Made by a program: the position numbers and the translations under genes. The notes under the pieces were generated by a model, which was not told the DNA's origin, did no database searches, and saw only the letters and a program-made list of their open reading frames with translations. This document shows positions 1,244 to 60,599 of a stretch of 64,000 bases of DNA, piece by piece. The DNA comes from Cyanidiococcus yangmingshanensis (taxonomy: Eukaryota; Rhodophyta; Bangiophyceae; Cyanidiales; Cyanidiaceae). Position 1 is the first letter of the stretch, and every line of letters begins with the position of its first letter. Location of the stretch: NCBI GenBank assembly GCA_013995675.1, contig VWRR01000012.1, positions 372,001 to 436,000 of the forward strand, read 5' to 3'.

Positions 1244-3154
1244 TCAGGCTCGTTGGTCGCTGCACCGGCAACATGCCTTGTCGTCGTCGTCGTCGAGTAC
1301 CCAGTCGCTGAGGACGACGACAGCGTCGCTCCTGGCCTTGTTCCGAAATGAAAACCACCCGATAGCGCAGGGAACGTCATCGACACCAAAGCCGAAACCG
1401 TCCCCTTCCGATGCCGTCATGGGCACCAGGCCCTGAATTTCGTCCTCCTCCTCGACGTCGAAATAGGTACGTAAAATATGCTGCGATTTGAAGTAAATAT
1501 CCTCATTGACGTGATTCTGGAGCATTTCGATCTTCTCCAGACCACCTACCTGTTCGATGAGGGACGCGTATTCGTTCGCGGGTTGGTGCATTCGTTCCCG
1601 CTCTCGTTCGCCCGAGGCGAGTATATTCTCCAGGCCCTCGAGGACGACGATGAGTAGTTTGCTATCATTCACCAGGAGCAGGTCACACATGGGTTTGATA
1701 CAACCTTGCATCACTAGGGCGCGTATCTGAGGGTCAGTGCCACCGGCAGTGGCGTTACTGATAGCCCAGGCTGCTTCTCGTCGAGTCTCAAAGTCACTTG
1801 TCGCCAACAGGGACACCAGCGGGGGCACAAGACCGTTCTCAATGACCAGTTCGATCTGTTCAATCGTGCCAGCAGTGATATTGCTCACCGTCCAGCAGGT
1901 CTCCTTACGAATGAGCCGCTTGGCTGACGACAGCAGGCGCAAAAGATAGGGCAGCGCACCGCAGTCCAGCACAGTCTGGGTCTGTTCATCGGTGCCAGTG
2001 ACGATGTTGCCGATCGTACGCAGCGCTGGTTGCTGTATCGCCGTCGATTCATGGCCCAGGAGCTCAATGACACGAGGGACAATACCCGAACGAATAATCG
2101 CATCGATCTGGGAATTGTTCTCGGTCTTGTCGTCGCTGAGGTAGGAGAGTGCCCAGCAGGTGTCGACCAGAACCTCCTCGTCGCTGCTCTGAACAAGCTG
2201 GGCGAGCACTGGCAGAGCGGCCAAAATTAAACTCATTTCTGGTGCCGGTTTGCCCCGGCAAAAGTTGCTCAGCGTCCATGTCGCATTTCGGAGCATACTC
2301 GGTTTGCGCTGAGTCTGCAACAACTGTAAAAGGGGCTCCATAGCGCCATGAGCAAGTACCAGGTCACGATATTGAACTGAATCACCGGCAATATTGCCGA
2401 GGGCCCAAGCAGCCTGTTCACAGACGTCCTCGTTGGGCGCTTGCAACAGACGAACAAAAAGAGGAAGTGCACCCGCTTGGACTACCACCGTGGTCTGCTC
2501 CGTGTTCCCACTCGCGATATTCGTGAGGGCCCATGCTGCCTCAAACTGCAGTTCAGGGTACTGGTCGTAGCTCAGATACTCAACGAACTTTTCCACTGTG
2601 CCTTGACACTCGATCACCTCCTGAATAGGCGGAGCGCGTTCGATGGAGAGAATACGCCGAAATTCGCGCACAGCTCGTAGCAAGAGCTCTGGGGTCGCGC
2701 CCGACTGGTAGAGCGTATCCCTCAGAGCTGGCATACTGGCCAAGATCTCTTGCCGAGAACGCGTCGTTAGCAGTGCTGCGCCCGAGTCCGAGGCGTCGCT
2801 CGTCGACTCGAGCATCGTCTCGGCCGCAGTGGACGCCGCTGCCGCTGTTCCGTCCGGTGTCGGAAACGCTCTCCCTGCAGTCGAGGCAGGCACAGAGACC
2901 CCTTGTCCTACGCCTCCCGCACCGGCTATCGACGAAGTGGCGTTTGCGTCCATAGTACCGAACGCCGATACGGGCGCTTCCCTTCCTGTCTGCGCAGCGG
3001 GGTGCTCCCGACGCTTCTTCATCAGGGTCTCCTCACGTTTCGTCTTCCGAATCTCCACTTTGTGCTCATCTCGTTTTCTTCTCGCTTCATCGAGATCTAC
3101 ACCCTTTTTGAAAGATCGATGCCGTTCTTCGATTCGAGCCCGAGTTGCCTGCAT
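1244..3154 (-). CDS. KPNA: Importin subunit alpha (karyopherin alpha)
   Basis: This is the adaptor that binds classical nuclear localisation signals and hands cargo to importin beta. An Arg/Lys-rich importin-beta-binding domain fills about residues 5-55 (EARRKRDEHKVEIRKTKREE). It is followed by about ten armadillo repeats, whose repeated signatures such as EAAWALTNIASG, EQAAWALGNIAGD and REAAWAISNATAGG carry the Trp/Asn ladder that grips the cargo signal. The ATG at 3154 sits directly before the binding domain. The C-terminus is odd. Family members end soon after a Gly-Gly-Phe-Asn-Phe type motif; here the frame reads GWFSF and runs on for some 45 atypical residues. One base further along the +1 frame, the family-like GGFHF appears, with the switch at the GGG near 1358-1360. 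The identity is certain; the last residues are not. Confidence 0.95.
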   Translation of the reverse strand: MQATRARIEERHRSFKKGVDLDEARRKRDEHKVEIRKTKREETLMKKRREHPAAQTGREAPVSAFGTMDANATSSIAGAGGVGQGVSVPASTAGRAFPTPDGTAAAASTAAETMLESTSDASDSGAALLTTRSRQEILASMPALRDTLYQSGATPELLLRAVREFRRILSIERAPPIQEVIECQGTVEKFVEYLSYDQYPELQFEAAWALTNIASGNTEQTTVVVQAGALPLFVRLLQAPNEDVCEQAAWALGNIAGDSVQYRDLVLAHGAMEPLLQLLQTQRKPSMLRNATWTLSNFCRGKPAPEMSLILAALPVLAQLVQSSDEEVLVDTCWALSYLSDDKTENNSQIDAIIRSGIVPRVIELLGHESTAIQQPALRTIGNIVTGTDEQTQTVLDCGALPYLLRLLSSAKRLIRKETCWTVSNITAGTIEQIELVIENGLVPPLVSLLATSDFETRREAAWAISNATAGGTDPQIRALVMQGCIKPMCDLLLVNDSKLLIVVLEGLENILASGERERERMHQPANEYASLIEQVGGLEKIEMLQNHVNEDIYFKSQHILRTYFDVEEEDEIQGLVPMTASEGDGFGFGVDDVPCAIGWFSFRNKARSDAVVVLSDWVLDDDDDKACCRCSDQRA

Positions 3155-3294
3155 ATGGACAAGTTCGATGTGCTACTCGTTTTCGTAGACCAACGACGTC
3201 CCTGAAAGCCAGCAAATCGTCGGAGGAGTTTCGACAGGGCGACGTCCTCGTCCAGCCTCTGCAGAGCGGTCGATTGTCACGTGACGTGGTAACT

Positions 3295-3643
3295 GGTATC
3301 TATCTGCCCATAATGGTCTATCACGAACCGATGCGGTCGATCGGCAGAGACGCTCGATACAGACGGCCATCGAAACCTATTGAATAGGTATCTATCTGCC
3401 CATAATGGTCTATCACGAACCGATGCGGTCGATCGGCAGAGACGCTCGATACAGACGGCCATCGAAACCTATTGAATAGGTATCTATCTGCCCATAATGG
3501 TCTATCACGAACCGATGCGGTCGATCGGCAGAGACGCTCGATACAGACGGCCATCGAAACCTATTGAATAGGTATCTATCTGCCCATAATGGTCTATCAC
3601 GAACCGATGCGGTCGATCGGCAGAGACGCTCGATACAGACGGC
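3295..3643. repeat. 92-bp tandem repeat, about 3.8 copies
   Basis: Copies start at 3295, 3387, 3479 and 3571, each opening with ggtatctatctgcccataat. The first three are complete and essentially identical. The fourth stops matching at about 3643. The unit is not a multiple of three, so it does not encode a repeated peptide in one frame, although each strand is largely open. It lies about 140 bp upstream of importin alpha. This near-identity points to recent expansion of a minisatellite. Confidence 0.95.
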
Positions 3644-9299: not shown

Positions 9300-9590
9300 G
9301 ATGAAACAGGGGCCGTCTCGGGCAACGACGAAGAATCCTGAACGGAAACAACCGGAGTCGAAGCTGTTTTGCAAGGGCGCTCTCTTCCCCGAATGGCTTG
9401 GGGAACGTTGCAAGCGTTCCGTGCTGGCGTTTTCGTGTCTTACTTGTACTGACTTGGTGTTGATGACGAGTTACCTATGAAGCACAGTCTGCCATTGACT
9501 GTGAACTTTGTCATCGCTCTGTGCTGATAGAAAGCGTTGAGCGCACTGGGAAACACGTAGCTTGGTTCATCGGTGGCTTGGGCTGGGGTC

Positions 9591-11010
9591 ATGGAACCTG
9601 ACGCATCAACACTGGGACCGTTGTTGCGTGCCCAAACAAACGCGACGGCTGGGAACGCCACAGAGAGGCGTTCTATGGGTCGTATACAGCGAATCTGTCG
9701 TCTAGGAGGCCTGCTTTTTTTCTTGTTCGCGTTGGCAGTGAGTATCCAGCTCAACCTGATCTACTGGTGCGTTCCGTTCTGGACGCGTTTTGAAGTGCCG
9801 GTAGAGTTCGTATTCGAGCCGAAGCGTCCACAAAACGGTGAAGCCAGTGTTGTGATTGCCCAAGCAAACACGCTGGTTCCTAGCGTACTCGTCCGTCGTT
9901 TGTGGTCTCGACGACGTGGTCCAGACTCTGAGTCGACATCTCGTTGGACGGACTGCTTCTCTTTAGACGCGGCAAGTTTTCGGCGTGGCTGTGAACGCAG
10001 TGGCACCATCGATCTTGAACTGCATTGGACGCTTCCAGACTCGATTCGGAACGAGCAAGCGGGGACCATCACGGTTGAGCTTGCCTTGTGGCAGATACCG
10101 CATCCTCGTTCACGACTGCAGCCAGCTCCAGCTCCGTTGCCGTTATGCCAACGTCGACGCAGTGTTCGCGTCTTGGCCTACCGATCTCCAACAGAGCGTG
10201 CACTGCGAAGCCTGTTGAGTTTGCCACAACACTTCATTGGAGCGCTCGATGTTTGGCGATGGTCCAAGAGGCCAGCTCGCTTATCACCACGAAATGCGCA
10301 ACGTCGTTGTATCCAACTGTTGCGACTGCGCACCCTTACAGATGAGCCAAGTACGAATGAACCAAACTGTAACCCTGGCGAGAACTCCACAGCCTGGACG
10401 TTACATTTCCTTGATCTCTGCACTCGCTGGCACAATCGCACGCTTGCTGGCCCGCGTTTGGGACCTGTTGGGAAGACAAGTCTTGCGTGACTGGGTCCTC
10501 GGCTCCATGTTCGCCCTGATACCTTTAGGTATTGGTGAATGGCTCAATGATCGGTATGTATTATCTGAACCGCCATATTTGCTCCAGGTTCGCCTGCGTC
10601 TCTATCAGTTCGTGGTTGCAGAGGCGAAGCGGTCGCACGACCTGGCTATCCCGTCACTCATAGAAGTGGATGACTGTTCCGCATCGATGCATTTCGAATG
10701 GGTCTTGGTCGGTTGGCGACGCTTTCTTCGCCACCATTACGTACTCGGTACCGTCTTTGGTTCATGGATCATATTTATCTTACTGGTGTTCCTGTATGCT
10801 CTCTATCGAATCTGGCATAGACGAGTCGTTCGAATCGAGCCTCGAGTACCCAAACCAGCATCTATTCCAAAATCTTCTCATAACCTATTCACAAGTACGC
10901 GATTTCGACCATTGATTGAGGGCACAACACTCGACACAGAACTGACTGGGAGCTTGTCGAGCGTTACGTCGGTGATCAGGCCACCGCTCATCGACGAGCG
11001 ACGGCTCTGA
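9591..11010 (+). CDS. SEI1: Seipin-like lipid droplet assembly protein (changes frame once)
   Basis: Seipin is an ER membrane protein at lipid-droplet contact sites. The first part, ATG at 9591, has a transmembrane helix (FALAVSIQLNLIYWCVPF) followed by a luminal beta-rich domain with IDLELHWTLPDS and SVRVLAYRSPTERALRSLL, which resembles the family's conserved Tyr-Arg-Ser segment. That frame closes at 10490. The rest of the family pattern continues in the +1 frame to 11010: a strand LLQVRLRLYQF, then FLRHHYVLG leading into a second helix (SWIIFILLVFLYALY). Two membrane helices flanking a luminal domain is the seipin layout. The frames overlap between 10237 and 10490, so the switch cannot be placed exactly; the GGG at about 10470 is a candidate. 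An intron is possible but I see no good splice pair. Confidence 0.7.
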
Positions 11011-11502: not shown

Positions 11503-13547
11503 ATGGTCGACTGGTGCCGAGCAATCCAGCACGCCTCGTCTGCCGCTCGCTCCCCGGCTCTTGTGTTCACGAACGCGGTTATCCGTAAATTCGAAATGCT
11601 GGACTTGAAACAAGCCAGTCAGTTCTATAGATCTCTTGTAACGGCTCCGAAGGGTTTGAAAGCGCTTATTCTCGACCCAGACACTTTACCTGTGTTCTCA
11701 ACGCTCGTTACCCAGACGGAGGCGCTCCGGGACGACTTTGTGCTGCTGGAAAAGTTGGAGAACTTGGTTCAGCAACCGTCCCGAGAGCGGCAGCTGCACA
11801 TCAAAGGGATTATAGTAGGACGTCCGACCGTGGACACGGTCCTTGCGTTGCGACGAGAACTGGCGCAGCCGCACTTTGGCCAGTACCATGTGTTTTTCGT
11901 GAACCTCGTTCGCCGGACGATGCTCGAGGATCTGGCTGATGCCGATGCGCTCCACGAAAGTGTCGTCAAGTGTTCAGGAAATGTTCTTTGATTATCTTCC
12001 GTGGAGTCCCTGGGTCGCCGTTGGGGTCAGCGAGACGGACTCGCGGCTAGAAGCGACGTTAGGAACCGCAGCTCGTACCATGCATCAACTCACCGTTGAT
12101 CGCCAGCTGGATACCTTGTTCAGCTTGCTGGTGACCCTGAAGCAACGACCAAACTCGATACGGGTCCTGAGATCCTTTCGAAGTTGTCGGGCGCTCGCTG
12201 AACGGCTTGCGGTCCGTCTTGATCAGGAGTCGAAACTCTGGGAGAGCCAGGTAACCGCCTCGGCATCGACATCGCTCTCCAAAGCAAACGTTTCCCACCA
12301 GAGACGATGCGTACTTGTCATTTTGGATCGAAGGGAGGATCCCATAACACCCTTGTTAACTCAGTGGACGTATGAGGCAATGCTCCAACAGTTTTTCGGG
12401 ATTCGAGCTGGACGAGTCCGTCTGCCGGTCGAAGAGGAGACGCGTTCATCTGAGGCGTTCGCCTCCCCCGAGACCGAGCATGTTGTCCTGCCTGAAGGCG
12501 ATCCTTTTTATGCTGCAAACCGGTATGCGTACTTTGGCGAGATTGGTGAAGCAGTTCACCGACTGGTTGCTTCATTCCAGGAGCATCGAGCATCGGCATT
12601 GGCTCGCGCCCGTGACTCCTCAAACAACGAATTAGACCTGGATGGGGAGCCAGGACGCCAGCGCTCATCCAGTGTAACAGCGAATGGTACCCATGCAGCG
12701 GACATGGAACAAGTTATGCAGATTCTGGAGCATTTTCCGGAATTCCGTCGGCAGTCACAGTTAGCAACCAAACACGTGACGCTCATTGGAGCACTCAGCA
12801 AGCAGGTGAAGATGCGAGAGCTCATGCAGATCTCGCAGCTTGAGCAAGACATGACCTGCCGAGATGCTGAGCAAGACCACATGCATCGCTTAGCCGAGCT
12901 ATGGAGTCAGGCAAGCCACTGGAGATCATTACCCCCTTCGGTGCGGTCTGCTCGAATGGAGGATGCCTGGCGACTGGCAGCCTTGTTTGCCCTTCGTTAT
13001 GAATCCACTCGACCAGAAACCATTGATCGTCTGAAGCATATGTTGCGGGAACGCTTACAAATGCCGAGCTGGGGACTCGATGCTCTCGACGGTTTGCTTC
13101 GAACATGTGGTTCCAAGCAACGAACCATAGACTTGTTTGGCAATCGTGATCTCATTGCTCGAGCCAAGAGCACGCTAAGGCGAGGTTTCGGCTCCAATGT
13201 CGATAATCAATATACACAGCATGAGCCGTTGCTTGCGCAGATCATGGAGGATGCTGCCAGAGGCCGTCTCTCGCCGGAGACTTTTGAGGAGCTTCCTCCC
13301 GAATGCATCCTCTGCGGGAAATCACTTTCCATTGGTGATCGTTTACGTCATTGGGGGTATCACTGCGGAAGAGGTGCGGCTCACGGCAGCATTTCAGGGT
13401 GATAACACAGCACGAACTGGCAGCCGTCGTGATTTTCAGACGATCCCCAAGGGCACATCCTTCTTCCTGAGTGGTGACTGGATGCATACACCGCGTTCGT
13501 TTCTGGAGCGATACGCCTTGGTAAATCCGGCACTGGCGACACCGTGA
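11503..13547 (+). CDS. VPS45: VPS45-like Sec1/Munc18 protein (changes frame twice)
   Basis: SM proteins bind syntaxins and promote SNARE assembly; VPS45 acts in trans-Golgi to endosome traffic. The ATG at 11503 opens a first segment with VFTNAVIRKFEMLD and QYHVFFVNLVRRTMLEDLAD. The second segment is in the +1 frame and carries VQEMFFDYLPW, LVILDRREDPITPLLTQWTY, FGEIGEAVHRLV and the VPS45-type ATKHVTLIGALSKQV. The third, +1 again, gives the C-terminal SM signature IVYVIGGITAEEVRL and RSFLERYALVN. The first switch must lie near 11965-11975, between SVVK and VQE. The second lies between about 13260 and 13320, with the GGG at 13316 a candidate. All three pieces follow the order and length of a complete VPS45, so this is one gene rather than three. 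Confidence 0.88.
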
Positions 13548-14162: not shown

Positions 14163-15934
14163 TCACATTCGCGTGTACTTGGGGCCGCCGCCTCCCTCTG
14201 GAGGCGTCCACACAATATTTTGTGTCGGATCCTTGATATCGCATGCCTTGCAATGCAGACAATTCTGAGCATTGATCTGCAGTCGCGGTGCAGCAGACCC
14301 CTCTCCAGAGCCGGTTGGTTCAGAAATATACTCATAGACCTTGGCCGGACAATAGTATTGTTCAGGACCTCCGTACAAGGGGAGATTCACTCGCTGAGGG
14401 GCCGACGGATCCCGCAACGTCAAATGACACGGCTGATCGTGCTCGTGGTTGGTTCCGCTGCGCACCAAGCTGGAGAGGATATCAAAGGTCAGGTTTTGGT
14501 CCGGAACAGGGTAGCTTGGTCTCGGGCACTTTGCGGCGTATTTGGTCGCCGCATGATCGGGACACCCCAGACGCCAAGTGTAGGGTGCGCGCCCCCTCCA
14601 GACATAGGTGTCGAGAGCGGCGTGGACCAGGCCGGGCCAGAGACCCCATCGAAAAGCTGGCCGCACATTCCGCACAGCGTAGAGTTCATCCATGACCCAG
14701 CTCTGGGCCAGGGCTTCGGGATACCGTGATGGTTCCAAACCAGGCGTCTCCCGCTTTAGCTCTTCCGCACAAGATTCGGCTGCAATCATGCCACTCTTCA
14801 TGGCGGTGTGGGTGCCCTTGAGCTTGGGCACATTCAGAAAACCCGCGCTGCAGCCGATGAGAGCTCCGCCGGGAAAACACAGACGCGGAATGCTCTGGTA
14901 GCCACCCTCGTTGAGCGCACGCGCTCCGTACTCGAGCAGCTCGCCTTCTGCTAACACGCTGCGAACCTTTTCGTGGGTCTTCCACTGCTGCAGCAACCCA
15001 TGAGGCGACAGAAACGGGTTCTCATAATCGAGACCAACGACAAACCCCAGAGCAACGAGATGTTCGGGCTCACCGGCAGTGTGATCCCGGAAATGATACA
15101 TGAACGATCCGCCGTAGGTACGGTGGTCAAGCGGCCATCCCACTGTATGGCGAACGTATCCCGGTTGATGCACCGTGGCAGGAACCCGCCAAAGCTCTTT
15201 CACACCAAGACCATAGGACTGTGGCTCGCATGAATCATTCAATCTAAAACGCTCTATGGCTTGCCGTGTGAGCGACCCTCGACAGCCCTCGGCCAGGAGT
15301 GTGTATCTCGCCTGAACGGATACCCCTGGTGCATAGTTTGACTTGTGGCGACCATCACGTCCAATACCAAAGTCGTTGGTAACCACACCACAGACTCGGC
15401 CTTCAGATGCATTGAATAGTAGACACTTTCCTGCAAATCCAGGGTAAAGATCGACCGCATGGGACTCGGCCTGTTTCGCTAGCCATCGAGTGACCTGCGA
15501 CAGGCTAACGATAAAGTTCCCCTTGTTCTGCATGAGTCGAGGCACTGGAAGCGCTAGTTGCTTCTTTTGACTGAGGATCAGATCAAATTCTTCCTTGTGA
15601 ACAGGTTCGTGGGCTGGAAACGTAGCGTCCTCACGCCAGCCAGGTAGCAGCTCATCAAGCGCCCGCGGTTCGAAACAGTTACCTGAGAGAATGTGCGCCC
15701 CGACTTGGGCGCCCTTCTCGAGCACTGCAACCCGCGCATCCGGAAGACACTGCTTCATCCGAATAGCCGCAGCGAGACCAGCTGGTACCGGCCCCGATCA
15801 CAAGCACGTCATAGGTTAGTGCCTCCTGTGCTGGTGCAAGTTCGTGTCCGAATAGTAGGCTGTCTCCCAAACCGCTTGCCCCGCTTCCCTCGAGTACACC
15901 ACAACTGAAAAGTATTTCTGAAAATCCACCTCAT
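14163..15934 (-). CDS. ETFDH: Electron transfer flavoprotein-ubiquinone oxidoreductase (ETF-QO), mitochondrial
   Basis: It is an inner mitochondrial membrane flavoprotein with one 4Fe-4S cluster. It takes electrons from ETF, which is fed by acyl-CoA dehydrogenases such as the isovaleryl-CoA dehydrogenase in this window, and reduces ubiquinone. The ATG at 15934 opens a classical presequence, MRWIFRNTFQLW followed by many Arg. The FAD motif VLVIGAG-PAGLAAAIR is split, with its second half in the +1 frame at about 15786 (GGT then one extra base). The main body then has GAHILSGNCFEP and ends with the diagnostic cluster region INAQNCLHCKACDIKDPTQ and PEGGGGPKY. The presequence and the FAD motif also differ by +1, most simply at a GGG near 15867. 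Two +1 changes in one otherwise perfect gene are unusual; see findings. Confidence 0.93.
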
Positions 15935-19438: not shown

Positions 19439-19442
19439 GAGG

Positions 19443-19767: not shown

Positions 19768-22716
19768 ATGCGTTTCGATTTTGCACGCGGTCTTCCAGAA
19801 TATGCTGCGTATTTCCCCGAAGACTCGATCGGATTGGATGGCGTGTCGACCAACAGCGAGTTTCGGCTCGCAGTCACCGCCAACATTTTGACGTTTCTGC
19901 TCTCTGCGGAAGGTTGCGGGCTTGCATCGCATGCGTTGCAGCGATATGATCAGGCCGCGGCTGCCCTTGGTATTCCGTCACTGGCAGAGGTGCTCAGAAC
20001 GCCCCGGTCCGTAGAGCCGTCTCCGTCAGCTGCTGCAACAACAACAACAACCATTGGTGCTGGCGCCCGTTGCCGGCCGGAGTCCAGAAAAAGATGAATG
20101 GGACAGGCTTGTATCCTCAGAGCCGAACGAGACGCAACCCCGAATCGGTTATCTGGAAAGCGACGAAGATACGAGCCCACAGCCAGGTCTGCTGAACGCG
20201 TTTGATGAGATCGCCGTTCCGGTAGATAACATGATTTTCGTTCGTTCGAGCAGCATGCGCACGTTTGGCGAGGCCCTCATCGAGAACCCCCAAGAGTCAC
20301 TGAACTGCCTAGGTCTGGCGCTCGTGCAGGCGGTCAAAATCCTTGCCTGGTTTCCGGCTGATGCGGCAAATGTGGAGCGCCCATGGAACGACATCCCACC
20401 TGATCTCTTGACCGAGCGCCTCGCAACGATTCGCCTGCCGCGGACCGTGGTGCGTCTCTACGACCTGGAAAGATTCACGGAACTGAGAGATCTTCGCGCT
20501 CACGCTGTTGGTCGGCTCGTTCAGGTTCGCGGCACCGTCATTCGCATTAGTAGCATTCGTCAGCAGCTGGCCGCGATCAAGGTCACTTGCGCTGGGTGCG
20601 GAAAAGCCCAAGAGGTTAACTGCCCGAATTTCCAGTTCAGACCGCCGATGAGCTGCATGGCCTCAGCCGAATGCAAGTCGCGCGTCTTCGTACCAGACCG
20701 TGAAACGGCAACGACCCTGGACTGGCAGCGCGTCCGTTTGCAGGAACTGTCGTCGACGGGCGGAATTGCAGATATCGGCGGCATTCCGCGCACCGTAGAC
20801 TGCGAGCTGGTCCATGCTGACATGTTGGACACAGTCATCCCCGGCGACATCATCGACGTTGTGGGTATCGTCAAGTTCCTCAATCTTGATACCGACGCAT
20901 CCCGTTCGAGACGAGGCAGGGACCACGCCCTTTATCAAATCTATCTCCAGGTGATATCTTTGGTGGCATCGCGTGATGGCAAGGGCGGTGAATCCAGCGA
21001 AATCGACAGTCCCAGCGGCGCTGCCGCGTTGGACGCTCACGCGGCGGCGCAACCAATATCACCAGAAGCTCCGAGACTCTCACAGGTCCTCGGCGAGAGA
21101 CCCAAAATACCGACACCGACCGCAATGAGTAGTCTGAGTAAGCCTCAACGCTCGCTCACAGAGGCAGATCAGGAATGCATTCGGGAGATCTTGCAATACC
21201 GTGAACACCTCTTCGAGTATTTGGTGCATTCGTTGTGTCCGATGATCTGTGGACATGATATCATCAAGACAGCGCTCCTGCTGGGCATCTTGGGCGGCAG
21301 CAATCGGAAATCGGCGAGGCCGCTCGTGGTCTCGGAGCTTGCCGAAGAAGCAACCCAGCAGGCAGCGGATTTGGATGCGCTCGCTGCGCGCTGTCCAATC
21401 GACGCGTCCGAACTGACTTCATCCGCTGAAACACTGGCAACTCGCAGCGATACTCATGTACTCGTCGTAGGCGACCCAGGCGTTGGAAAATCGCAAATGC
21501 TCAGGGCAGCAGCTGCCTTGCTCCCACGATCTGTCTATGTTTGCGGGAACACCACGACGACCTCAGGTCTGACGGTCACGGTAAGTCGCGAAGCCGGCAG
21601 TGGAGAGTACGTGCTTGAGGCTGGCGCGCTTGTGCTCGCCGATCGCGGCATTTGTTGCATCGACGAGTTCGACAAAATGTCTGCAGACTATCAGGCACTG
21701 TTGGAGGCCATGGAGCAACAGAGCATCAGCGTCGCGAAAGCGGGAATAATCGGAACGCTTGCCGCTCGTGCCTCAATTCTGGCTGCTGCAAATCCCGTCG
21801 GTGGTCATTACGATAAACGCCGAACGGTCTGCGAGAACTTGAAAATGAGCCCTGCGCTGCTTTCGCGTTTCGATCTCGTCTTCGTCGTACAGGATCAACC
21901 CGATCTGCGGCGCGATCAGCGCATCTCCGAGCACGTGATGGCGACATTCGGCGGCCGACGACAGCGCGCTGCACCCATGCGCTGGTCGGTTTCCACGGAA
22001 TCCAGCGACGGCTCCGAGTCCCGTGATGTCAAAAGAGTACGCAGATTCCGGTCCCAATGCCGGCCTGATGGAACGTCTGCACAGAACGCGTGACTTGGCC
22101 CAAAAGCCTGCTAGCGCCCGCGCGCTCCGAAAATACATCGCATTCGCTCGCCAGTGCGTTCATCCAGTACTTAGCGTGGAAGCGAAGCGAGTACTCTGTG
22201 ATTTTTATCTGCTTATGCGACGAAATGCGCATGCGCATGCTGGCGTTCAAGGTCTGGACGCGTTGCCGCCAGTGACGACTCGCCAGCTCGAGTCCCTGAA
22301 ACGGCTTGCTCAGGCCCGAGCCCGCGCTGAGCTTCGCACCATCGTTCGCGCTCAGGACGCACGTGATGTGATTGAAATGATGCAATGCTCCATGTTCGAC
22401 GTCTACTCCGACGAACGCGGCGTGCTTGACTTTTCGCGAGTCGGAGGCACCAGTCGTGCAAATGATGTCCGTCGGTTTCTTGCCATCTTACACACGGAAG
22501 CGAGCCGTCGTCCAGAATGCCCAGTTCCATGTAGACGAGTTACAACAGCTCGCGAACCAGCATGAGATTCAGTACGGCAGCGATTTCGCTCAATTTGTCG
22601 ATATGCTGAACCTACAGGGATTCCTCCTGCAGCGCGCCTATCGTTACTATCGACTCCAGAGTAGTGAATTTGCCGGGGCGGCGAACGACAGGACCCAGCG
22701 TCGCAACAGCGGTTGA
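19768..22716 (+). CDS. MCM8: MCM8-like helicase (changes frame three times)
   Basis: MCM8 is an AAA+ helicase subunit acting with MCM9 in homologous recombination and repair synthesis. The N-terminal OB region includes VRLYDLERFTELRDLRAH, VGRLVQVRGTVIRISSIR, zinc-binding Cys pairs (CAGCGKAQ ... CMASAEC) and IPRTVDCELVHADMLD, a stretch close to MCM8 rather than MCM2-7. The AAA+ core has Walker A GDPGVGKSQ, Walker B CCIDEFDKM, and the arginine finger region LLSRFDLVFV. The C-terminus has LRKYIAFARQCVHPVL and a winged helix ending FVDMLNLQGFLLQ. The four pieces lie in successive +1 frames, with changes near 20035-20095, 22020-22090 and 22485-22530. The first change is close to a (CAA)5 run. ATG at 19768 chosen; the frame upstream of it opens only from a TTG. 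Confidence 0.9.
20036..20050. repeat. (CAA)5 run inside MCM8
   Basis: This short triplet run encodes a poly-Thr or poly-Gln stretch depending on frame. It sits beside the first frame change of MCM8, in a poorly conserved linker. Confidence 0.85.
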
Positions 22717-25148: not shown

Positions 25149-28100
25149 ATGGCTTCACTGGCCGGCACAAGTTCTCTACGGGCTCTTGGTGGCTGCATGG
25201 TCGCCAACAGGCCGAACGGTGCTTGCTTCTCAAGCGTCGCCTATCGAGACGCCTGGATTTGCATCGTGACCATCGTAAACCTTCGATCCAGGGTTCATCT
25301 GTTGGGTGTTCGAAGGTCCAGTGTCCAGCAACCACAAACCAGCCATCGTACGACGTCCTTCAGCGCCAGCGCCAGGGTTCGTAGAGCGCTGGCGCCGGTC
25401 CTCTTCTCGCTGCTGCCGCACTCGCTGCGGGCAAGGTCTACGAGTGCGACGGCCCTCTACGAGGCGTTGATGGAGGCAAGTCTCGGCGCTTCAGTGCCTG
25501 TGTCCATGAAGCTTGGGTTGATGTTTACCCTAGGCCAGGTTGACGCTCAGGTTGGAATGGAGCGCCGTCTTGTTCGTTGCGCTCCGTGCTGCAATGACAG
25601 GACCTCTGCTGGTGCGAAAAGGCTCTTTCGGCTCGGGGTTACGCTTTTCACGAACCTTCGAGTTAAGCCTCGGTGGTTCGTATACAAGTGCGCTTCGATT
25701 CTGTTACTATGCGCAAACGACAGACCTGACACGCGGGATTCACTGAATCGCGAGCAGACGCCGCCCGCTCACCGACTTGCTTCTCGGCTCTGTTGCCAGT
25801 ACCCGCTCACTGAAGCGGTCCGCTACACTGGAGCAGGCGTGCGCGTTCGCGACGGACCGTTGCTGGAGGCAGTTGTTTCTCGCGTGGCAGCGATCGTCGC
25901 TATGGTCGCTACATGTCGACGGAGTGTGTTCGGTGTCATGATCACAGCCTCTCACAATCCGGCCGACGAGAACGGCGTCAAAGTGATTCGCAGTGACGGA
26001 GGACTCCTGCTTGAGCGTCAGCTCGATACACCTCATCATATTCAAGGCGAGTATTTCGCAGATTTGCTGCAGGAGGCGCTGCAACCCCCCTCACATGATC
26101 ACTCAGCGACAAATGACGGCACATGTCTTCAGCCGGAGGCGACCTCCATCGACAGGGAGATCGCACGACTCAACTGGCTGTTTGAACGCCTCCGAGCCCG
26201 TATGCTGGGTCATTCCGTGCGTAATCAAGGGATGAAAACCCTCGAGGTCGAGGTTGGTCTTCGAAACGATTCCGGCGGCCTAGTGATCATCGGGTATGAT
26301 AATCGCTCGAGCTCCGTTCGACTTGCCGAGATTGCTCGACGTGTCGCTCTGGAAGCCACGAAGAGTGTGGGTGTACGGGAGCTGGGCCTCACGACAACGC
26401 CATTCGCCCAGTACGCAGTTTGGGCGACACAAAACGGGCAGCGAAGCAGCTTTGCTGGCTATATCCGTGAACGCCTGGTACAAGGTTATCTCGATCTCTG
26501 TCGAGCGTTGCTGCTGGACCCAGAGGTCGTATCTCCCGATGCCTACGATCAAAGGACCGTCCTGCAAGTAGATTGCGCCCATGGAACAGGCTCAGTCACC
26601 TTGGACGAGGTCGCATCGAGTTTAGATCTACCGTTTAGGATCGTGAATCATCATCGTGAATCGCAAGCAGTGAACCAGGAGTGTGGAGCCGAGTACGTCC
26701 ATCGCTATGCTCGACCTGGCTGCGGAGGCGGGATGCAGGTCCCAGGACAACGCATGGCTGCTCTGGACGGTGACGCGGACCGACTCGTCTACTATGGGAC
26801 GCTTGGCATCGACGAAGACGTAACAGACGAATCGAGACTGCAGCATACCTCGATAACCGTCTATGACGGTGATTGGATCGCCCTTGTATTGGTGACGCTT
26901 CTTTACCGATGCCGATCGTATTTCATTGAAGATCAGAGATCAGAGACGGACGCATTGGATGCTCAGCTGCCGAAACACCTGACCATGGGCTGTGCACTCA
27001 CCGCCTACTGCAGTGGCATCTATCGGGAGCGAATCCAATCAGTTTGCCAAGGCCGCGTTCTCTTGGTGCCGACTGGCGCCCAGCATGGGCGCGATATGGT
27101 CGAGCGTCATTTTGACCTCGCTGTCTACGCGGAACCGAATGGACATGTCGGCTGCTATATTGCGCCTCTAGTCCTTCATCGTCTACGCAAACTATTGAAT
27201 GAATACTCTGGGGCCCTGTCGCGCAGAGCCGAATACGCTGCCCGTTGCCTTCGTCGCGATCGCTAGGCTTGGAAACCCGACTGGAAGCGACGGGGTCTCG
27301 TTGCTGCTGACAATTGAAGCGCTCTTGAGAACCGAACCAGCGACTCACTTTCTTCGCCGAATAGGGACGCTGTCTCCGCCGCAACGTACTGCAGTGGTCA
27401 ACTTGCAGCTGGCCGAAGAGGAGCTTGTCTCCGAGGACCTGCGCCTTGCCAGTCGTCAAGCTGCAGTTAGTTGGCGGTTTTGCGCCGATGAAACCCGCAT
27501 TCTGGAACCATATTGGGCTCAAAGTGATATTATCGACGAAAGCCTGCGATGGGCGCACTCCAAGTACCCCGATTGGATACAGAGAGGATCCCTGAGTGCC
27601 TTTGTGCGACCGTCTCGCACAGAGCCAATCTGGCGCATTCGAGTTGAGGCAGCTTCCGAGGCAACACCTTTGACCCAAGCAGATGTCCAGGTCGCTGAAC
27701 AAGTGGCAGCGTTCATACGAAAGCGTCTGGTTGCCGCTTTCCAGCGAGTTTCTGGAACCACCAAGCCCCAAACCTATTCTGAACGAGGTCTACAGCGGAG
27801 AACGGTTCCCGTTCATGATACCATGACGCTGGCCGCGTTTGAGGCAGCAGCAGCAGAGAGGCATGGGAATCCGCAGCTGCTCCTTCCACCTGACTGGTCC
27901 AAACAGCTGCAATCATCCCGAGTCGTTGGCATTGTTCTAGCAGCCGGACAAGGCAGTCGTTTTCGGGCGGCCTACCCCAAGGTGGTGCACTCCTTCTGTG
28001 GGAAACCAATGGTTCGTCGTGTCCTCGACACGCTAACCATGTTGCGAATTCCCACCTTGGTCGTGACACACGATTCCACCGAAAATGCCGTCGTGAATGC

Positions 28101-28800
28101 GCTCTTCCCATTATCGTACGGAATGGTGCGACAACGCGAGCCACTCGGTACTGGACACGCCCTCTACACTGCAATCCATTATTGTCTGCGCGATTTTCAC
28201 GGCGATGTGCTCGTACTTTACGGTGACAATCCTGGCGTTGACGCGACGCTACTTGAACCGCTGCTGGCGCTGCGAGCGAACATTCGAGTTGGGCCAGCGA
28301 CCCAAGACTGTCTATCGAGACATTTCGGAGTCATTTTGAGTGGGTCTTATACATCCAAGGACGCTGGCACCTACGGACGCGTTCTTCGCGACGACCAAAG
28401 CGGAGCGCTCAAGTCTATCGTGGAGTATCGCGAAGCGCGAAAGCGACCGGATGAAGCAGCGATTCTCGCTGTGCGGGAGTTCTACTCGGGTATCATGGTG
28501 GCGGATCGTGTGGCTTGTCTAGAACTCCTCGGCCAATGTCGTGCTCATCGACTGAACAGTCTTAACAACGACAGCAGCGGCGGCATGGAGGAGCGCTTTG
28601 AGTTCTATGCGACCGATGTGATCCAGATGGCTATCAGCCAAGGCTTTCGCGTCGATGTGCATTGCGTACCCGAGTCGAGCGGTCTACTCTGGCGCCTAGA
28701 GGGCGTCAATACTGTTGCTGAACTAGAGGCTCTGGAACTGGAGGCGAATTCATCAGCGAGTCGCGAGACACCGGGAATGTCATCATCAGGTGGCGTCTGA
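25149..28800 (+). CDS. Bifunctional phosphoacetylglucosamine mutase / GlmU-type UDP-GlcNAc pyrophosphorylase
   Basis: Two successive enzymes of UDP-GlcNAc synthesis are fused. The first half is a eukaryotic AGM1/PGM3-type mutase: phosphoserine loop VMITASHNPADENGVK, metal loop LDGDADR, sugar loop EPNGHVG, and phosphate loop FVRPSRTEP (Arg where the family normally has Gly). It changes frame by +1 between about 27199 and 27266. After a linker of about 50 residues, in the same frame, comes a bacterial GlmU-like nucleotidyltransferase: LAAGQGSRFRAAYPKVVH, YGDNPGVD, YSGIMVADR and EGVNTVAELEAL. The left-handed beta-helix acetyltransferase half of bacterial GlmU is absent. About 225 residues precede the mutase domain in the open frame without any motif. 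The ATG at 25149 is the first available, and the real start may be later. Cytosolic; feeds N-glycan, GPI and cell-wall synthesis. Confidence 0.85.
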
Positions 28801-29386: not shown

Positions 29387-31682
29387 TCAGGCAAGAGCAA
29401 TCGCATCTTCGGGGTAACCAGAGTCACACAAGGCGTACCACATGTCCTGAGAGAAGGTCTCATTGCCGCAGATGATTGCCATGGTGCCTTCGGTCCATGC
29501 TGGCATCGCGGGCATTACTTTGGTGGCGGCTGCGACGCGTGTTGATGCCCAGTTGTTGGTGGCCATGCCCGGCCGCGACGGATACTGGCCAGTGTTGTCA
29601 TTCCAGACGCAGTGAAGGCGGAATCGCTCGCCGAAGGCTTTGGTCATGCGGTCGAGATCATCGAGCATGATAAAGTCTTGAGCGCGCTCATTGTAGTAGA
29701 TGAGCGTTATTCGGCTCACGGCCGACTCGGGGTCGCCGAGGAGCTCCTCTGCGATGCGTACCGCAGAGACAATGCCCAGTGCCAGACGCCAGCAAGGCAA
29801 CATTGTGGACAACAACTGTTTTCGCGGACGGATTCATGGCTCGACGATACACCAACTCCGTATCTGGAGCCGGCCGCACCAGGACAGTGTCATGCCCCTC
29901 TACGAGTGACTCTAACGCCACCAGGAAAGATTCATCGAACTCAGTATCCGTGGTAGCACTCGTCGGCATGACTTGATCGGGAGTCTGCGGTCTCTCGAGG
30001 ACCCGAAGATCCCCACTGACGTCATGCGAGGAAGCTTGCTCATCCGTTATCCACGACGAGACGGAGCCGGAACGCGCAGCATCGATTCCGGTCGCTTCCT
30101 GGAGCACCTCCCGCAACGCCATCGAAACCGGCACGATGATATCGAAAGAGCCCCGCTGGTGACGATCCGTGGCGATCGCAAGACGATGTGGCCGAATATC
30201 TGAAGACGCGGTCGCCGAAACAGGCTCGCTCGATGAATGGATGTCGCTCCAGAGACTCTGACGACTCTTGCGCACCCGCATCTCTAGACGTTGACCCATG
30301 AGCAAGGCGAGTTCATCATCGGGGTTCGGGAGGTCGAAGCGCATCCGAATGTAGGCGTCAGATATCTGAATGCGCTCGCGGAGGACGCAATGCACATAGT
30401 CGCCATCTGACGGGCCGTGGAAGAACCTGCAAAGCTGAGCAAACAACGAATCTGTTTGAGACACGGAAGGTGAGACGGAACTCGGTGCGTCGATTGCTTG
30501 TGAGGGCGATTCCATGCCTGATGATGCTAGGAACATTCTGTTTTTGGCAAGACCTTCTAGGACCGCTGCGGAGCGCGATGACGCAGCGGACCACAAACCG
30601 ACGGCACTGCGCCAAGCAAGAAGCAAAATCGAAGCGGTTGAATAGACAAGAGCCTGCGCAAGGCGTTGGAAGAGCCCCAGAAAGGCACCGATGACCAAGG
30701 TCACCCCGCCCCAGATGAGAAGAAGCGCACTACCAACGACGCGGAGTGCCAGCAAGAGACCGCGAACCAACGTCGTGGATGCATGCAGAGCCAGCACCAA
30801 CACGGCACGAAGGCGCTCAACCAGCGCACTCAGAGCCAGTCCAATAAGCACGGTGATTGTCAAAGAGGCTTGTACGAGGCCCACCAGTTGTTTGTGCAGG
30901 ATAACCGAGATAGATGGTCTCGCGGGAGACCCTGGTTCCGGTGTCGGACGCGGCAGCATTAGTCTTGCAGAATAGAACCCGAGCAGGACTGCAAAAACGC
31001 CGAGGAAGAAATCGACGGAGCCCACGGTGCCCACAACCGAGCCCGGGTGTGCCGGCATTGGCGCAGGCACTGTCACTCCTTTGAGCGGCTGCGCAGGCAT
31101 GGTGCTGGATCCATCGAGCGCTCTCGGTCGACCGGCTACCTGCACCGAAATAGTGCCAGCTGGGGCGGCCCTTACCTTCGCATGCTCGCTCCGTGTCGTT
31201 GATTCGGATGTAGACGGTTGTGCCAGACGGAGCCTTGACTCGTGCTGCTTTCCCACCTTTGCCTTCTGCACAGCTGACTCGTTCGGAACAAAGACGCGCT
31301 GGCCCGGAACAAGCGGTCGCCCAAGCGTCTCCTCCAGAGACAAACCCCTCGTTGTGGACGTATCCGCGACACCCTGCCTCGCCCAGAAATGAAACGGAAA
31401 GCGCCCTTGCTTGAACTCGAGTTGACGAGCACGGTTATTCAGTTCCCATAAACGCTCTACTTCGACACCATAGCGTGCAGCTATGGTAGAAAGCGTATCG
31501 CCAACCTGTGTTGTCACATAAAAACCTGGCGGCCGAGGCACACTGCGCACAAGTGTCATGGTCGCAGACGACCGCGATTGCCAGTTACGCAACGTACGAT
31601 TGATCGTTTGTAACTGCCTTACGTGGGAACGAACGCTATACCCACACGCTCCTCTGCCATCGTGCACAAAGATGACCCACAT
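29387..31682 (-). CDS. LysM - multi-pass membrane - cytochrome-b5-reductase-like fusion protein
   Basis: The N-terminus carries a LysM glycan-binding motif (FYVTTQVGDTLSTIAARYGV ... VPGQRVFVP) with an insertion between its halves. A linker follows, then three or more hydrophobic segments (for example FFLGVFAVLLGFY and LTITVLIGLALSAL). After these comes a reductase-like module: a beta-barrel segment ISDAYIRMRFDLPNPDDE, and an NAD-binding half beginning SGTG-IVSAVRIAEELL and containing ITLIYYNERAQDF and MAIICGNETFS. The Gly-Thr-Gly-Ile motif is split by a +1 change at GGG, 29775-29777. The usual FAD motif Arg-x-Tyr-Thr/Ser is not seen, so flavin binding is uncertain. Met at 31682 or 31559 are the plausible starts; the frame is open to 31925. 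The location is unknown; plastid envelope or thylakoid would be a guess. Confidence 0.72.
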
Positions 31683-36874: not shown

Positions 36875-37961
36875 ATGGAGCAAACTGATTCTTTACCAGA
36901 AAGGAGAGCATCCGTGTCGACATCGGTAGAGGTGGAAAAGTCGTCCATTATTGAGCACGCGATCGCGGCCCTCTTGGAGCGCAGTCGCAGTGCGAGGCGA
37001 CGACTCGGCGAACAGAACCCGTTGATTGCCTCGTTTGAATCAGACGTTGCTGCTGCTGACGCGACCGAATGGGTCTTTCTCATTATAACGCTTCAAAGCA
37101 TGCCGAATAAGCTTCCTCGGAGGCCACGACTTATCCCTCTACCGCACTCTTTATACCGGCCCGGGACGACTGATGAGGCCGGGCAACGCGACGACGCACG
37201 CTGTGAGTATCATATGCCCCGATCCCGTACGTCCATATCGAAAGTTCTTTTTGGAAGCACCTCCTGCTGAGTGGCGGGAGCGCATCAAAAGGTTGTCGAT
37301 AACGCAGGTGCTTTCGGTGCGGCAGCTTCGTCGTGACTATGGACGCTTTGAGCAGCGTCGTGAGCTGGTCGCCTCGCACAGCCTGTTTCTCGCCGATACC
37401 CGAGTTTGGCCCATGCTGCCCGATCTTCTCGGGAAAGAGTTCTTTCGTCGCAAAAAATATCCGTTGCCAGTGAACTTGACTGGTTTGGAAAATGCTGTCC
37501 CTGTGGTCGGTGAAAGGGTCGTCCGTGCGTGTGAACGCATTCTCGATAGCACGGTCTGGCACGGCGGGCTCTCTGGTACCTGCTGTGCTCTTCGGGTCGG
37601 ACACCTGGCCATGGACCCGGCTGCCTTGAAGGCGAATGTGCTTCAAGTGCTTCATGCTTTGCCTTCTTTGGTTCCTGGTGGTGTTCGGCACGGCATCCTG
37701 AGCATTTACATCAAGACGCAAGAGCTTGTCCCCATCCCAGTTTACGTTGCGGAGCGTGTATCACGAGCGATGTCGTCGAGTGTGCCTATCGGATCCAAGT
37801 TTGGTATGTGGTCGCCAGAACGCCGCCGAAGAAAAGGGAAACTGGTGAGCGTTCCTGACGGCCACGCGACCCCACTGGAGCGCAAACGACGTCGACGACA
37901 AGGAAAGCGCGGAAAAACAAACACAGGGCATCGCAACGAAACAAGGGTTATCCCATTGTAA
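36875..37961 (+). CDS. Ribosomal L1 domain protein, RSL1D1/UTP30 type (changes frame once)
   Basis: It is a nucleolar ribosome-biogenesis protein related to yeast Cic1/Utp30. The first segment begins at ATG 36875 (MEQTDSLPERR) and contains LITLQ-type residues and LIPLPHSLYRPG, the family's 'P-P-H/S-L' start of the L1 fold. The rest is in the +1 frame: SIICPDPVRPYRKFFLE, LRRDYGRFEQRRELVASHSLFLAD, LLGKEFFRRKKYPLPVNL and NVLQVLHALPSLVPGG, ending in a strongly basic tail. The change lies between about 37150 and 37185; the GGG at 37181-37183 is a good candidate. Order and length are otherwise complete. Confidence 0.82.
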
Positions 37962-46752: not shown

Positions 46753-46762
46753 GACACGTGTC
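46753..46762. promoter_or_regulatory. Palindrome gacacgtgtc (second copy, OTU promoter)
   Basis: The second perfect copy is spaced 46 bp from the first. Paired sites suggest cooperative binding. Confidence 0.5.
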
Positions 46763-47844: not shown

Positions 47845-48475
47845 TCAGTAACGGAATCGTTGGGTTTCCTTCCGCTGCGTCCGCTCCTCAAAGCCACGAA
47901 GCCATTGCTGTGTATCGAAGACCACCGGTAAGAAATGGATACTCCCACGACCATCATAGCTCTCTGTCTCGCGGAAGTAGAACAGGACTGGGAACCGCGA
48001 CCACCACAACTTCCAGTATTCGATACGATCATAGTGCCAGCCTCGCACATAGTGATAGCCGTCTAAAGCAGCGTCCTTCACCCCAGCAACTTGCGACTCT
48101 CCAGATGATCCTCGCCTCCAAACCTCAATGGAATCCGGTCCAAACCGAAATCGCAATAGCAACCCTGCATTGATGACCAGGAAGACACCCAAAAGCCCAA
48201 CAGGTACTGCAAAGACTTTACCTGCGCCACCACCGGCGCCAGCCAGCACTCCAGACAAACCCAGCACCACCAAAGGCAGCGTCAAGTTCGGTCGGACGGT
48301 AAACGGCTCGTACGGAGTCAGCGTACAACGTAGTTGTGGGGGCTTACGAGTCTGACGCTCCCCGAAACTCAACTCGTGTGCGGATGACTGCCCGACGTCG
48401 GAGACGGCTACAGACAGGGCGCTGCTTCGTTACCACCACCGTTGGGGCTGTCGAGAAAGCCAGCCTCCCGAGCAT
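47845..48475 (-). CDS. DUF3119-like plastid membrane protein (changes frame once)
   Basis: The mature part has two hydrophobic segments (LPLVVLGLSGVLAG and VPVGLLGVFLVINAGLLL) followed by a soluble domain with WHYDRIEYWKLWWSRFPVLFYFRE and HFLPVVFDTQQWLRGFEER. This arrangement recalls the cyanobacterial/plastid DUF3119 family of unknown function. Upstream, in the frame one base before, an ATG at 48475 opens a typical transit peptide (MLGRLAFSTAPTVVV, then many Arg). The two join by +1 within a GGGG run at about 48357-48362. The family assignment is from memory of the pattern and should be treated as probable. Confidence 0.68.
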
Positions 48476-48804
48476 CACTGACAAACAACTTGACAATCTG
48501 AAACGTTTCGATGAATGAGAAGCGGCCAGTCTCGACCTCCAGCAAAACAACGCAATGGAAGCGTTCAGAAAGTGATCAGCCGTTGTATGGTACCTCGAGT
48601 GAGCGCCTTGCGGGGAATCTCCGCGTCTCGCTCGGTTCGCGTGCACAACAAGGTGCTCAGCGCTCTATCGCGAACATAGGGGCATCTGTTTGGGTTCTGG
48701 GTTGAATAGGAGACCGATACTTGACGCCTTTACTGCTCTTGATGAAGCACACTGCGGTCTTAGGAGGCGAGCACAAGCCATCGTCTAGGCTAGGGTTTCT
48801 GGCG

Positions 48805-55621: not shown

Positions 55622-55881
55622 AACACTATGCTTCAATCATGCACAGCGTCGGAACCTCGCAACGTTCCTTCAAAACGAGGCTTCGTCTGCAAGGAAGCAA
55701 CGTTTCTGCAGCAGCGTCGCAGCGGTGGTCAGCGCTCGTTCTCGCCAGCAGCGCCCCTATCTGGCTGGAACGAAGTGTACAAACTCGTCGAGATTTCACG
55801 TTCCATAACCGCTCGCCAAGTGTGGTCTAACTGTCTTCATAGAGACCTACTTGGTGGCAAGAAAACCTAGTTGGCTTCAAC

Positions 55882-57694
55882 ATGGAACTCATTCGTCTAG
55901 CCAAAGGCTTTGTAGTTGCTGTTGCCCGAGCCAACTTGACAGGAGCAACGTTCGGGAGGAGCACTCTACGAGCGCCAAGTCGACGTTGGCGAACGCAAAC
56001 GGACGCTTTGGGGTCGCAGCAGTCACTGTTGAACTCAGCCACGTCAGTGCCGTACAGACGACCTCATACTCGGCAGTGTCAGCGTTGTGGGTGTAACACG
56101 AGCTGGAGCCAGGCAGGGAGGAGGGCGCTCAACCTTCGTCCCTTTGATAGGAAGGTCTCGTCCTTGGTCTCCGTCTTGCGCGTTGCTATGGTCGCGAGAC
56201 GAACGTTATCTTCGTCTGGATCATCACCGAAGCATATACCTGGAACGGCGGTTGTCGACTCGCCAGAGACAACCGCCACAGCCGCGACGTCGACAGCCTG
56301 GTGGACATCCCCCGGTCCCGTCTACTACAATGGACGACATTCGCACGCCGATGAGGTATTGTTGGGTACTGTCCTGGACTCGAACCGTACAGAACTACGG
56401 AACGCTGTCCGCTTATTTGCTCACGACTTTATCGCCCCGTACGCCGCAGCGATCGATGAAGCCAACCGTTTCCCGCGGGAGCAACTCTGGACAGAACTGG
56501 GACATTTGGGAGTCCTCGGGGTCACCACCGCTGTCGCCTACGGTGGACTCGGACTGGGATTGGTTGAACACTGCCTCATCATGGAGGAGTTGAGTCGAGC
56601 TTCGGCGAGTATTGGGCTCTCGTACGGTGCCCACTCGAATCTCTGTATGATGCAAATTGATCGACATGGGCGCCCTGCCCAGAAGGAGCAACTTTTACCG
56701 CCACTCTGCAGTGGAGCTTGGATTGGTGCGCTCGCCATGAGTGAAACCGGCGCTGGCTCTGATGTTTTAGGCTCGATGCGAACCACTGCTCGTCAGAGCA
56801 AACGCGTGACCGATGCTGGCAGCGTTCGCTCAGGCTGGTGTATCCAAGGAAGCAAAATGTGGATTACAAACGGTCCTGATGCCGACGTCCTAGTGCTATA
56901 TGCTCGAACGCCGGAACTGGAGCCACAGCAGGCGGTTAGCGCTGGACACGCCACCAAGTCAAATGAGGCAACCGCTTTGAAGCCCAGTGTGACGGCATTT
57001 GCGTTACAGACCGCACAACTGGGTTCTGGGTATCGCGTTGCACAGAAACTCGACAAACTCGGAATGCGAGGCAGCAATACGTGTGAACTCCTTTTCGATT
57101 CGGTGTGGGTCCCCGAGGACGCTGTCCTGGGTGAGCCTGGCCAAGGGACTCGAGTCCTTATGTCAGGTCTGGATGCCGAACGACTGGTCCTCAGTGCTGG
57201 GCCTCTAGGTATCATGCAGGCGTGTCTTGATGTCGTCTTGCCCTATGTTGGGAGAACGCAAGCAGTTTCAGCGCCCTATCGGCACGTTTCCATTGATGCA
57301 GGCGAAACTGGCAGATCTCTATGGCGCCCTGGCGTCGAGTCGAGCGCACACCTACGGGCTCGCTGCCTCATTCGACAGCATACGACTGCAATCCGGGGAC
57401 GCAGGTGCCAATGCACTCAGTCCCGCTGATAGGCCTGATTCTCAACTCCGCTCTTTTCGCAAGGACTGTGCATCTGTCATTCTGCAGAACGCGGAACGAG
57501 CGACGCAGTGTGCCCTGCAAGCGATTCAGGCCCTCGGTGGCAACGGCTACGTATCCGACTATCCCACAGGACGCCTACTTCGGGATGCCAAACTGTACGA
57601 GATTGGTGCAGGCACCAGTGAGATACGTCGTATGCTCATCGGCCGGGAGCTATACCAAGCAGCACATCCGCAGCAGAACGCATCAGAACAATGA
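55882..57694 (+). CDS. IVD: Isovaleryl-CoA dehydrogenase, mitochondrial (changes frame once)
   Basis: It oxidises isovaleryl-CoA to 3-methylcrotonyl-CoA and passes electrons to ETF. Signatures: LGVTTAVAYGGLGLG, IALAMSETGAGSD-type ALAMSETGAGSDVLGS, GSKMWITNGPDADVL, and DAERLVLSAGPLG, where the Glu sits at the position used for catalysis in IVD rather than in medium-chain enzymes. The C-terminus, in the +1 frame, has GERKQFQRPIGTFPLMQ and LGGNGYVSDYPTGRLLRDAK. The switch is fixed by homology at 57250-57253 (GTT GGG A). ATG at 55882 gives a long Arg-rich N-terminus; the internal Met at 56188 (MVARRTLSSSGSS) would also make a good presequence. Confidence 0.93.
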
Positions 57695-58821: not shown

Positions 58822-60599
58822 CTACATTCGAAAGACTCCGTATCGACCGCGTTGCACAACAGGCGCAAGTCCGTAGCCGGCAGACTGGCTTGTCACTTGA
58901 ACAACACGCAGCGCAATACCGAGAACCTGTCGGGTCTCCAGAGGCAGGATAACGCCGTCATCCCAAAGGTTTGCAGTAGCAAACCAGGCGCTATTCTCAA
59001 AAGCGTAGCGCTTGGAGAGTGCCGCAATACCTTCGTCGGGGTTTGTTCCTTTGCGCTCGCGTTGCACTTGACTGAGCACGCGGGTGGCCTGTTCACTACC
59101 CATCACACCGATTCGAGCACTGGGCCAGGTGAAGAGGAACCGAGGACTATAGGCGCGCCCACTCATACCGTAGTTGCCGGCACCGTAGCTGGCCCCAACG
59201 ATCAAGGTGATCTTCGGTACAGTGGCACAAGCAACCGCATTCACCATTTTGGCACCGTCTTTGGCGATACCGCCCCATTCTGCCTGTTTTCCGACCATAA
59301 AGCCGCTGATATTCTGCAGGAAGAGGAGCGGTATGCCCTGTTGTTCGCAGAGCTGGATGAAATGCGTACCTTTCTTGGCTGCGTCACCGAACAAAACGCC
59401 TTGGTTGCCCAGAATGCCCACATCACGACCACAGACCGATGCAAATCCCGCCACCAGCGTCGTTCCGTAGCGTGCCTTGAACTCATCGAAAACAGAACCG
59501 TCTACCAGTCGAGCAATGACCTCGTACATGTCCAAGTCGGCGGTGCCAGCGCTGCTGTTCACGGTCTCTGCACGATCCTGTCTGGGTAACTGAGGGCCAA
59601 GGCAGCCATACAGATCAGCAATATCGAAACGTGGAGCTGCAAAACGCTTATCCCAGGTCTGCCAGTCGGCAGCCAAAGGCTGCGGTACACTTCGTTGAAT
59701 GAGCGCTCGAATACGGAGCAACGCCTCGGCATCATGCTCGGCAAGATGGTCTGCAACGCCGCTTTGCGTGGTATGGACCAGGGCACCGCCTAGCTCCTCG
59801 GCCGTGATATCCTCCCCGATAGCTGCTTTGACGAGGGGTGGTCCCCCAAGAAAGATCGTCCCGGTACCCCGCACCATGATCGCCTCATCCGACATTGCTG
59901 GAACGTATGCTCCTCCTGCTGTACAGCTTCCGAGCACTGCAGCTACCTGGAGAATACCATCTCGGCTCATACGAGCCTGATTATAGAAGATTCTTCCAAA
60001 ATGCTCTCGGTCAGGGAAGACGCGATGCTGAAGCGGCAAGTACGCTCCACCCGAGTCCACCAGATAGACGCAGGGCAAACGGTTTTCGGCAGCGATCTCC
60101 TGGGCTCGCAGGTGTTTCTTTACCGTGATCGGAAAGTAGGTTCCCCCTTTCACGGTGGCATCGTTCGCGACGATCATGCACCAGCGTTGGGCGACGAGTC
60201 CTATCCCAGTCACGACTACCTGCACCGGGAGGGAGCTTCGCTTCAGCTGTCATCACTTTGAGCGCTTGGATATGTGTACTGTCCAGCACCGGCGAAAGCG
60301 CTCAGCTCGAGAAAAGGCGAGCCCGGGTCGATGAGCGCAGCGATGCGCTCCCGAGCGAGCAGCTTGCCTCGTGAGGTGTGTCGCTCGCGGGCTCTCGGCC
60401 CGCCAGCATCTTTGGCCGACTCAATCAAGCGCTGATACTCCTCTTCCAGTGCACGATACGATACAAGTCCTTGGCGGTAACGCTCACTCGTGGTGTCTAG
60501 TTGCGAGCCCAGGACTCGCGAGGACAGCTTTCGACGCAGCGCACCCAGTTGTCGTGCAACGAGTCTCCAGGCGGCACGAGGAACTACGACGGTTCTCAT
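58822..60599 (-). CDS. MCCB: 3-methylcrotonyl-CoA carboxylase beta (carboxyltransferase) subunit (changes frame twice)
   Basis: It transfers the carboxyl group from biotin to 3-methylcrotonyl-CoA. ATG at 60599 gives a basic presequence ([17 protein letters not shown]). The first segment has [19 protein letters not shown] and ends [10 protein letters not shown] short middle segment in the +1 frame carries [10 protein letters not shown]. The main body, +1 again, has [51 protein letters not shown] and [13 protein letters not shown]. These are the acyl-CoA carboxyltransferase signatures, with the Thr-Val-Lys-Lys-His run typical of MCCB. The second change is fixed at about 60218-60220 (GGT then one extra base). 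All domains are otherwise complete. Confidence 0.93.

Follow-up and report, generated by a model that had tools for sequence, protein, structure and literature searches.

Frame breaks in conserved genes of a Cyanidiococcus draft genome are very probably residual single-base insertion errors

Conserved genes in a window of 64,000 nucleotides (the whole stretch of DNA analysed here) are interrupted by single extra bases, and these are almost certainly residual insertions in a long-read draft, the genes being otherwise intact and read without biological frameshifting. The frame breaks are very probably an artefact and reveal no new way of gene reading, because a near-identical strain with an Illumina-corrected genome has the proteins of electron-transfer flavoprotein-ubiquinone oxidoreductase (ETF-QO) and VPS45 without the extra bases, and because the events are spread over genes as chance would spread them. 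On the same two grounds we uphold what the original prediction offered as its simplest reading, residual single-base insertions in an unpolished assembly. Residual insertions account for every change that could be placed.

The window carries eukaryotic genes, most of them with reading frames open from end to end. A codon-usage model trained on the window itself (11275 training codons) and run without homology proposes 18 frame changes in the whole 64 kb, 11 of the '+1' type and 7 of the '-1' type. Two of the '-1' calls mark the natural ends of genes (13537, close to the end of the VPS45 relative at 13544, and 44572, the stop of a peptidase gene), the '-1' call at 60248 in the MCCB gene is two +1 steps, and for that at 48422 in a DUF3119-like gene the third frame, on our reading, allows one +1 step instead. 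Three further '-1' calls (430, 51489 and 61883) and one '+1' call (51856) stand without two-sided homology and are counted against the artefact explanation; the window may thus contain some -1 changes. The changes proposed for the Deg, OTU and Nudix genes remain candidates after inspection of their three-frame translations. The model misses both changes in ETF-QO and the one in importin alpha; its account of the downstream frames is that codon usage in them stays normal.

Homology on both sides of the break defines 12 changes (ETF-QO 2, VPS45 2, MCM8 3, IVD 1, MCCB 2, and one each in a LysM-reductase and a mutase gene), and all 12 are +1, that is, one extra base. Removing the LysM-reductase and mutase changes, whose downstream Pfam matches lie below the curated cut-off, leaves 10 of 10 in the same direction; under equal odds of insertion and deletion the two-sided p is about 0.0005 for 12/12 (2 x 0.5^12) and 0.002 for 10/10. 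The original prediction that frame changes exist is confirmed by the codon-usage model and by close relatives of ETF-QO, VPS45 and MCM8, as is its statement that every change placed by homology is +1, two of the twelve being weak. Taken as a whole, that observation stands in the existence of the changes and in their one-sided direction, and falls in its rule that they often occur at Gly or GGG codons.

We aligned the window to relatives' proteins in a frame-tolerant manner and then scored each site with one base dropped, unchanged and with one base added (Table 1). ETF-QO and VPS45 match best to CCYA12G3276 (P0121) and CCYA12G3277 (P0241), respectively, which carry consecutive gene numbers in Cyanidiococcus yangmingshanensis 8.1.23 F7, and this identifies the window as Cyanidiococcus. 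Once the two single-base extras per gene are allowed for, both alignments are gap-free, with 578 of 587 residues matching in ETF-QO and 642 of 647 in VPS45. MCM8 matches the whole 980-residue relative P0001 at 937 of 977 residues, with three extras and one codon-sized gap, and none of the three alignments contains a -1 step. Dropping one base gives 28, 28, 30, 30, 21, 31 and 30 matches per 31 at the seven sites resolved in this way; leaving the sequence unchanged gives 10-17/31 and adding a base 11-18/31, so that the relative's residues are not restored. By this protein comparison the extra bases are absent from 8.1.23 F7 at 4/4 sites and from P0001 at 3/3, and whole proteins are also found in more distant relatives (P0002, P0003, P0122-P0124, P0242 and P0243). 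Since 9/587 compared residues of ETF-QO and 5/647 of VPS45 differ, the window strain is probably not 8.1.23 F7 itself. The relatives are predicted proteins, and gene prediction might sometimes span a frame break, though it would not do so by exactly one base, gap-free and at 98-99% identity.

Table 1. Placed frame changes, with window positions; fractions are matching residues with one base dropped unless marked otherwise
Feature	Position	Strand	Evidence
VPS45, first extra base (G)	11970..11970	+	Sole best single drop: 30/31 vs 14/31 unchanged, 16/31 one more; P0241
VPS45, second extra base (one of TTCC)	13293..13296	+	30/31 vs 17/31 unchanged
ETF-QO, first extra base (A or one of GG, coding sense)	15825..15827	-	28/31 vs 15/31 unchanged; P0121
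ETF-QO, second extra base (T or A, coding sense), conserved GAGPAG motif	15786..15787	-	28/31 vs 13/31 unchanged
MCM8, first extra base (one of CCCGTT)	20066..20071	+	21/31 vs 10/31 unchanged; P0001
MCM8, second extra base (one of CCG)	22014..22016	+	31/31 vs 17/31 unchanged
MCM8, third extra base (one of TCC)	22511..22513	+	30/31 vs 15/31 unchanged
IVD, extra base (one of TTGGGA)	57248..57253	+	25/33 one fewer, 14/33 unchanged, 15/33 one more; solved isovaleryl-CoA dehydrogenase 4o5m
MCCB, first (upstream) extra base	60221..60250	-	Frame switch between QSDDS and EAKLPPGAG; direction from frames, place approximate
MCCB, second (downstream) extra base	60210..60220	-	30/39 vs 8/39 unchanged, segment of 9yx0 chain G; not base-exact
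LysM-reductase, extra base (one of TGGGC, coding sense)	29774..29778	-	FAD-binding domain upstream, weak NAD-binding match downstream
Mutase fusion, frame change (+1), approximate	27190..27260	+	AMG1 domain III upstream, weak PGM_PMM_IV match downstream
Seipin-like, frame change (+1), approximate	10400..10425	+	Codon usage plus a one-sided Pfam match (seipin, upstream)
RSL1D1-like, frame change (+1), approximate	37180..37225	+	Codon usage plus a one-sided Pfam match (Ribosomal_L1, downstream)
Importin alpha, C-terminal frame change (+1), probable only	1335..1385	-	Authors' reading of three-frame translations; no model call
DUF3119-like, frame change, probable +1 only	48395..48445	-	Model gives net -1; third frame reads as one +1

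The remaining changes are placed by solved structures, domains or codon usage. In IVD, the Pfam profile is covered at positions 1-37 before the change and 39-149 after it, the first of these matches lying just under the cut-off. The changes in MCCB are read as two +1 steps and not as one -1 because the short middle frame holds a PGAG motif common to the solved carboxyltransferase. The LysM-reductase site was placed against the gene's own joined reading, without a close relative. The product of this gene (29390-31565) is unusual in combining a LysM domain with a C-terminal half that resembles a reductase, and the mutase change lies in a single gene (25446-28749) that joins a phosphoacetylglucosamine-mutase-like part (Pfam PGM_PMM_I and AMG1_III) to a nucleotidyltransferase-like part (NTP_transf_3).

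If ribosomes passed over a single base in many places, possibly on Gly GGG or GGT codons, the changes would be common, one-sided, located in conserved genes and followed by frames of normal codon usage, all of which is seen in the window. Such translational +1 frameshifting is nevertheless extremely improbable: the sites are missing from the strain with 98-99% identical proteins and, for MCM8, from P0001, and the seven resolved shift codons (ACA, GGT, AAG, CTT, GCC, TCC and CGT) are all different. Only one of the seven, at the second ETF-QO site, encodes Gly, which is unremarkable for a residue that makes up 827 of the 11275 training codons (7.3%). No stop codon is present at or directly after the shift codon at any of the seven sites, past the shift the old frame runs on for 6 to 36 codons, and we find no shared slippery sequence, no column being alike across all seven. 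Programmed +1 shifting is unsupported, as no codon is shared and no site is kept in 8.1.23 F7 (0/4) or in P0001 (0/3).

We rejected a Gly or GGG signal, and the bias claimed for it does not survive among the resolved sites. Conserved stretches hold all four showcase sites for this signal, and Gly-rich motifs (GAGPAG, GTG and PGAG) hold three of the four; homology can pin sites in such places, so the apparent bias is one of ascertainment and no signal. These four had been described as fixed almost to the base. Dropping any of six bases suffices in IVD and any of five in the LysM-reductase gene, with a GGG run among them in both, and the second MCCB site is not fixed to the base. Errors confined to homopolymers were likewise rejected. 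Lengthening of a run of 2-3 equal bases fits 5/7 sites and fails at the second ETF-QO and first VPS45 sites; as runs of this kind hold 40% of the bases in the window and the choice of extra base is ambiguous, we claim no enrichment.

Two features of base order in the window are recorded here as separate observations. Runs of at least four G or C occur at about half the frequency expected from base composition or less (G4, 89 vs 189; G5, 18 vs 52; C4, 101 vs 215), an expectation that is simple and takes no account of codon effects, and A and T runs show no depletion. At 3295-3643, a 92-base unit is repeated head to tail in 3.8 copies with a 100% match between copies.

The frames are broken as they are in pseudogenes, which is what real frameshift mutations in a strain with decaying genes would leave behind. 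We regard decay as very unlikely, since between the breaks ETF-QO and VPS45 remain 98-99% identical to the relative and gap-free, since the broken genes include VPS45, importin alpha and subunits of MCC, which are expected to matter, and since insertions alone (12/12) would be odd for mutation. The protein is restored by removing one base, as it would be if introns or transcript editing took out extra sequence. The surplus of one base per resolved site is too short for an intron, introns number 36 in the whole 8.1.23 F7 genome according to its published description (PMC9812998), and the 8.1.23 F7 proteins match without the base; we give removal by splicing or editing almost no credence. Equally far-fetched is a strain that has gained real extra bases since its split from 8.1.23 F7 and reads through them by +1 shifts tied to no fixed codon.

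The 16 events available for analysis (the 12 with two-sided homology and four weaker ones in the importin, DUF3119, seipin and RSL1D1 genes) are distributed over 23 genes in a manner that fits an even spread by chance (P 0.55), in line with the random-error-like spread that had been proposed. This test omits four calls of the codon-usage model (430, 51489, 51856 and 61883) together with its two gene-end calls (13537 and 44572), and uses 23 gene lengths that were entered by hand, some of them rounded. The density of events is 0.42 per kb of coding DNA (38.5 kb), which seems high for an assembly polished three times and is counted against the artefact explanation; the wholly one-sided direction (12/12) is also listed against it.

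Under the artefact explanation, single bases would have been inserted during sequencing and consensus calling and left uncorrected by accurate reads, each insertion shifting the frame of an otherwise intact gene, and insertion-rich raw PacBio reads would have set the one-sided +1 direction. We infer both that sequencing and not mutation is the source of the extra bases and that the chemistry of the raw reads is the cause of their direction. Insertions are enriched in raw PacBio reads (PMC6487183). For C. yangmingshanensis 8.1.23 F7, a cyanidiophyte red alga whose genome spans 12.0 Mb, PacBio reads supplied the assembly and Pilon corrected it using Illumina reads (PMC9812998). A Cyanidiococcus draft of the kind to be expected is that of strain Soos, published as C. 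merolae and built from PacBio RS II P4-C2 reads with canu and three rounds of Quiver (PMC6629376). Soos was misnamed and has been renamed C. yangmingshanensis, and technical problems such as inaccurate gene models are reported for earlier drafts (both in PMC9812998). The likely origin of the window is Soos or the strain of Liu et al. 2020, which is cited in PMC10272599 with RNA-seq sets SRX6816975, SRX6816977 and SRX6816979. On our reading of a table in the Soos report, multi-exon genes make up 9.4% in Soos vs 0.5% in C. merolae 10D (PMC6629376), an excess of the kind that gene callers bridging frame breaks would produce. Our literature search on frameshift problems in cyanidiophytes found none, and a comparison of the MCC alpha protein with viral contigs, seeking relatives' DNA, gave no match.

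Among known systems, PacBio assemblies without short-read correction share the features seen here, random single-base insertions that break frames and are absent from a corrected, near-identical genome; we found no difference from them, with two of the seven resolved sites lying outside runs of equal bases. Non-triplet decoding in Euplotes is alike in affecting many genes, with several changes per gene that are mostly +1, and differs in that Euplotes shifts at UAA or UAG stops, most often after AAA (PMC10235951), whereas 0/7 sites in the window involve a stop. Programmed +1 shifting in antizyme, yeast Ty1 and bacterial prfB also skips one base; each of those cases is one regulated site with a fixed slippery sequence (PMC10235951), in contrast to 16 events over 23 genes with no shared sequence. 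A literature search on programmed frameshifting in red algae found none. Were recoding true here, it would amount to genome-wide non-triplet decoding outside Euplotes. We know of no case of this. With residual insertions as the explanation, a one-sided +1 pattern does not by itself point to recoding where raw reads are rich in insertions, and protein sets from such drafts can hold broken or falsely spliced gene models.
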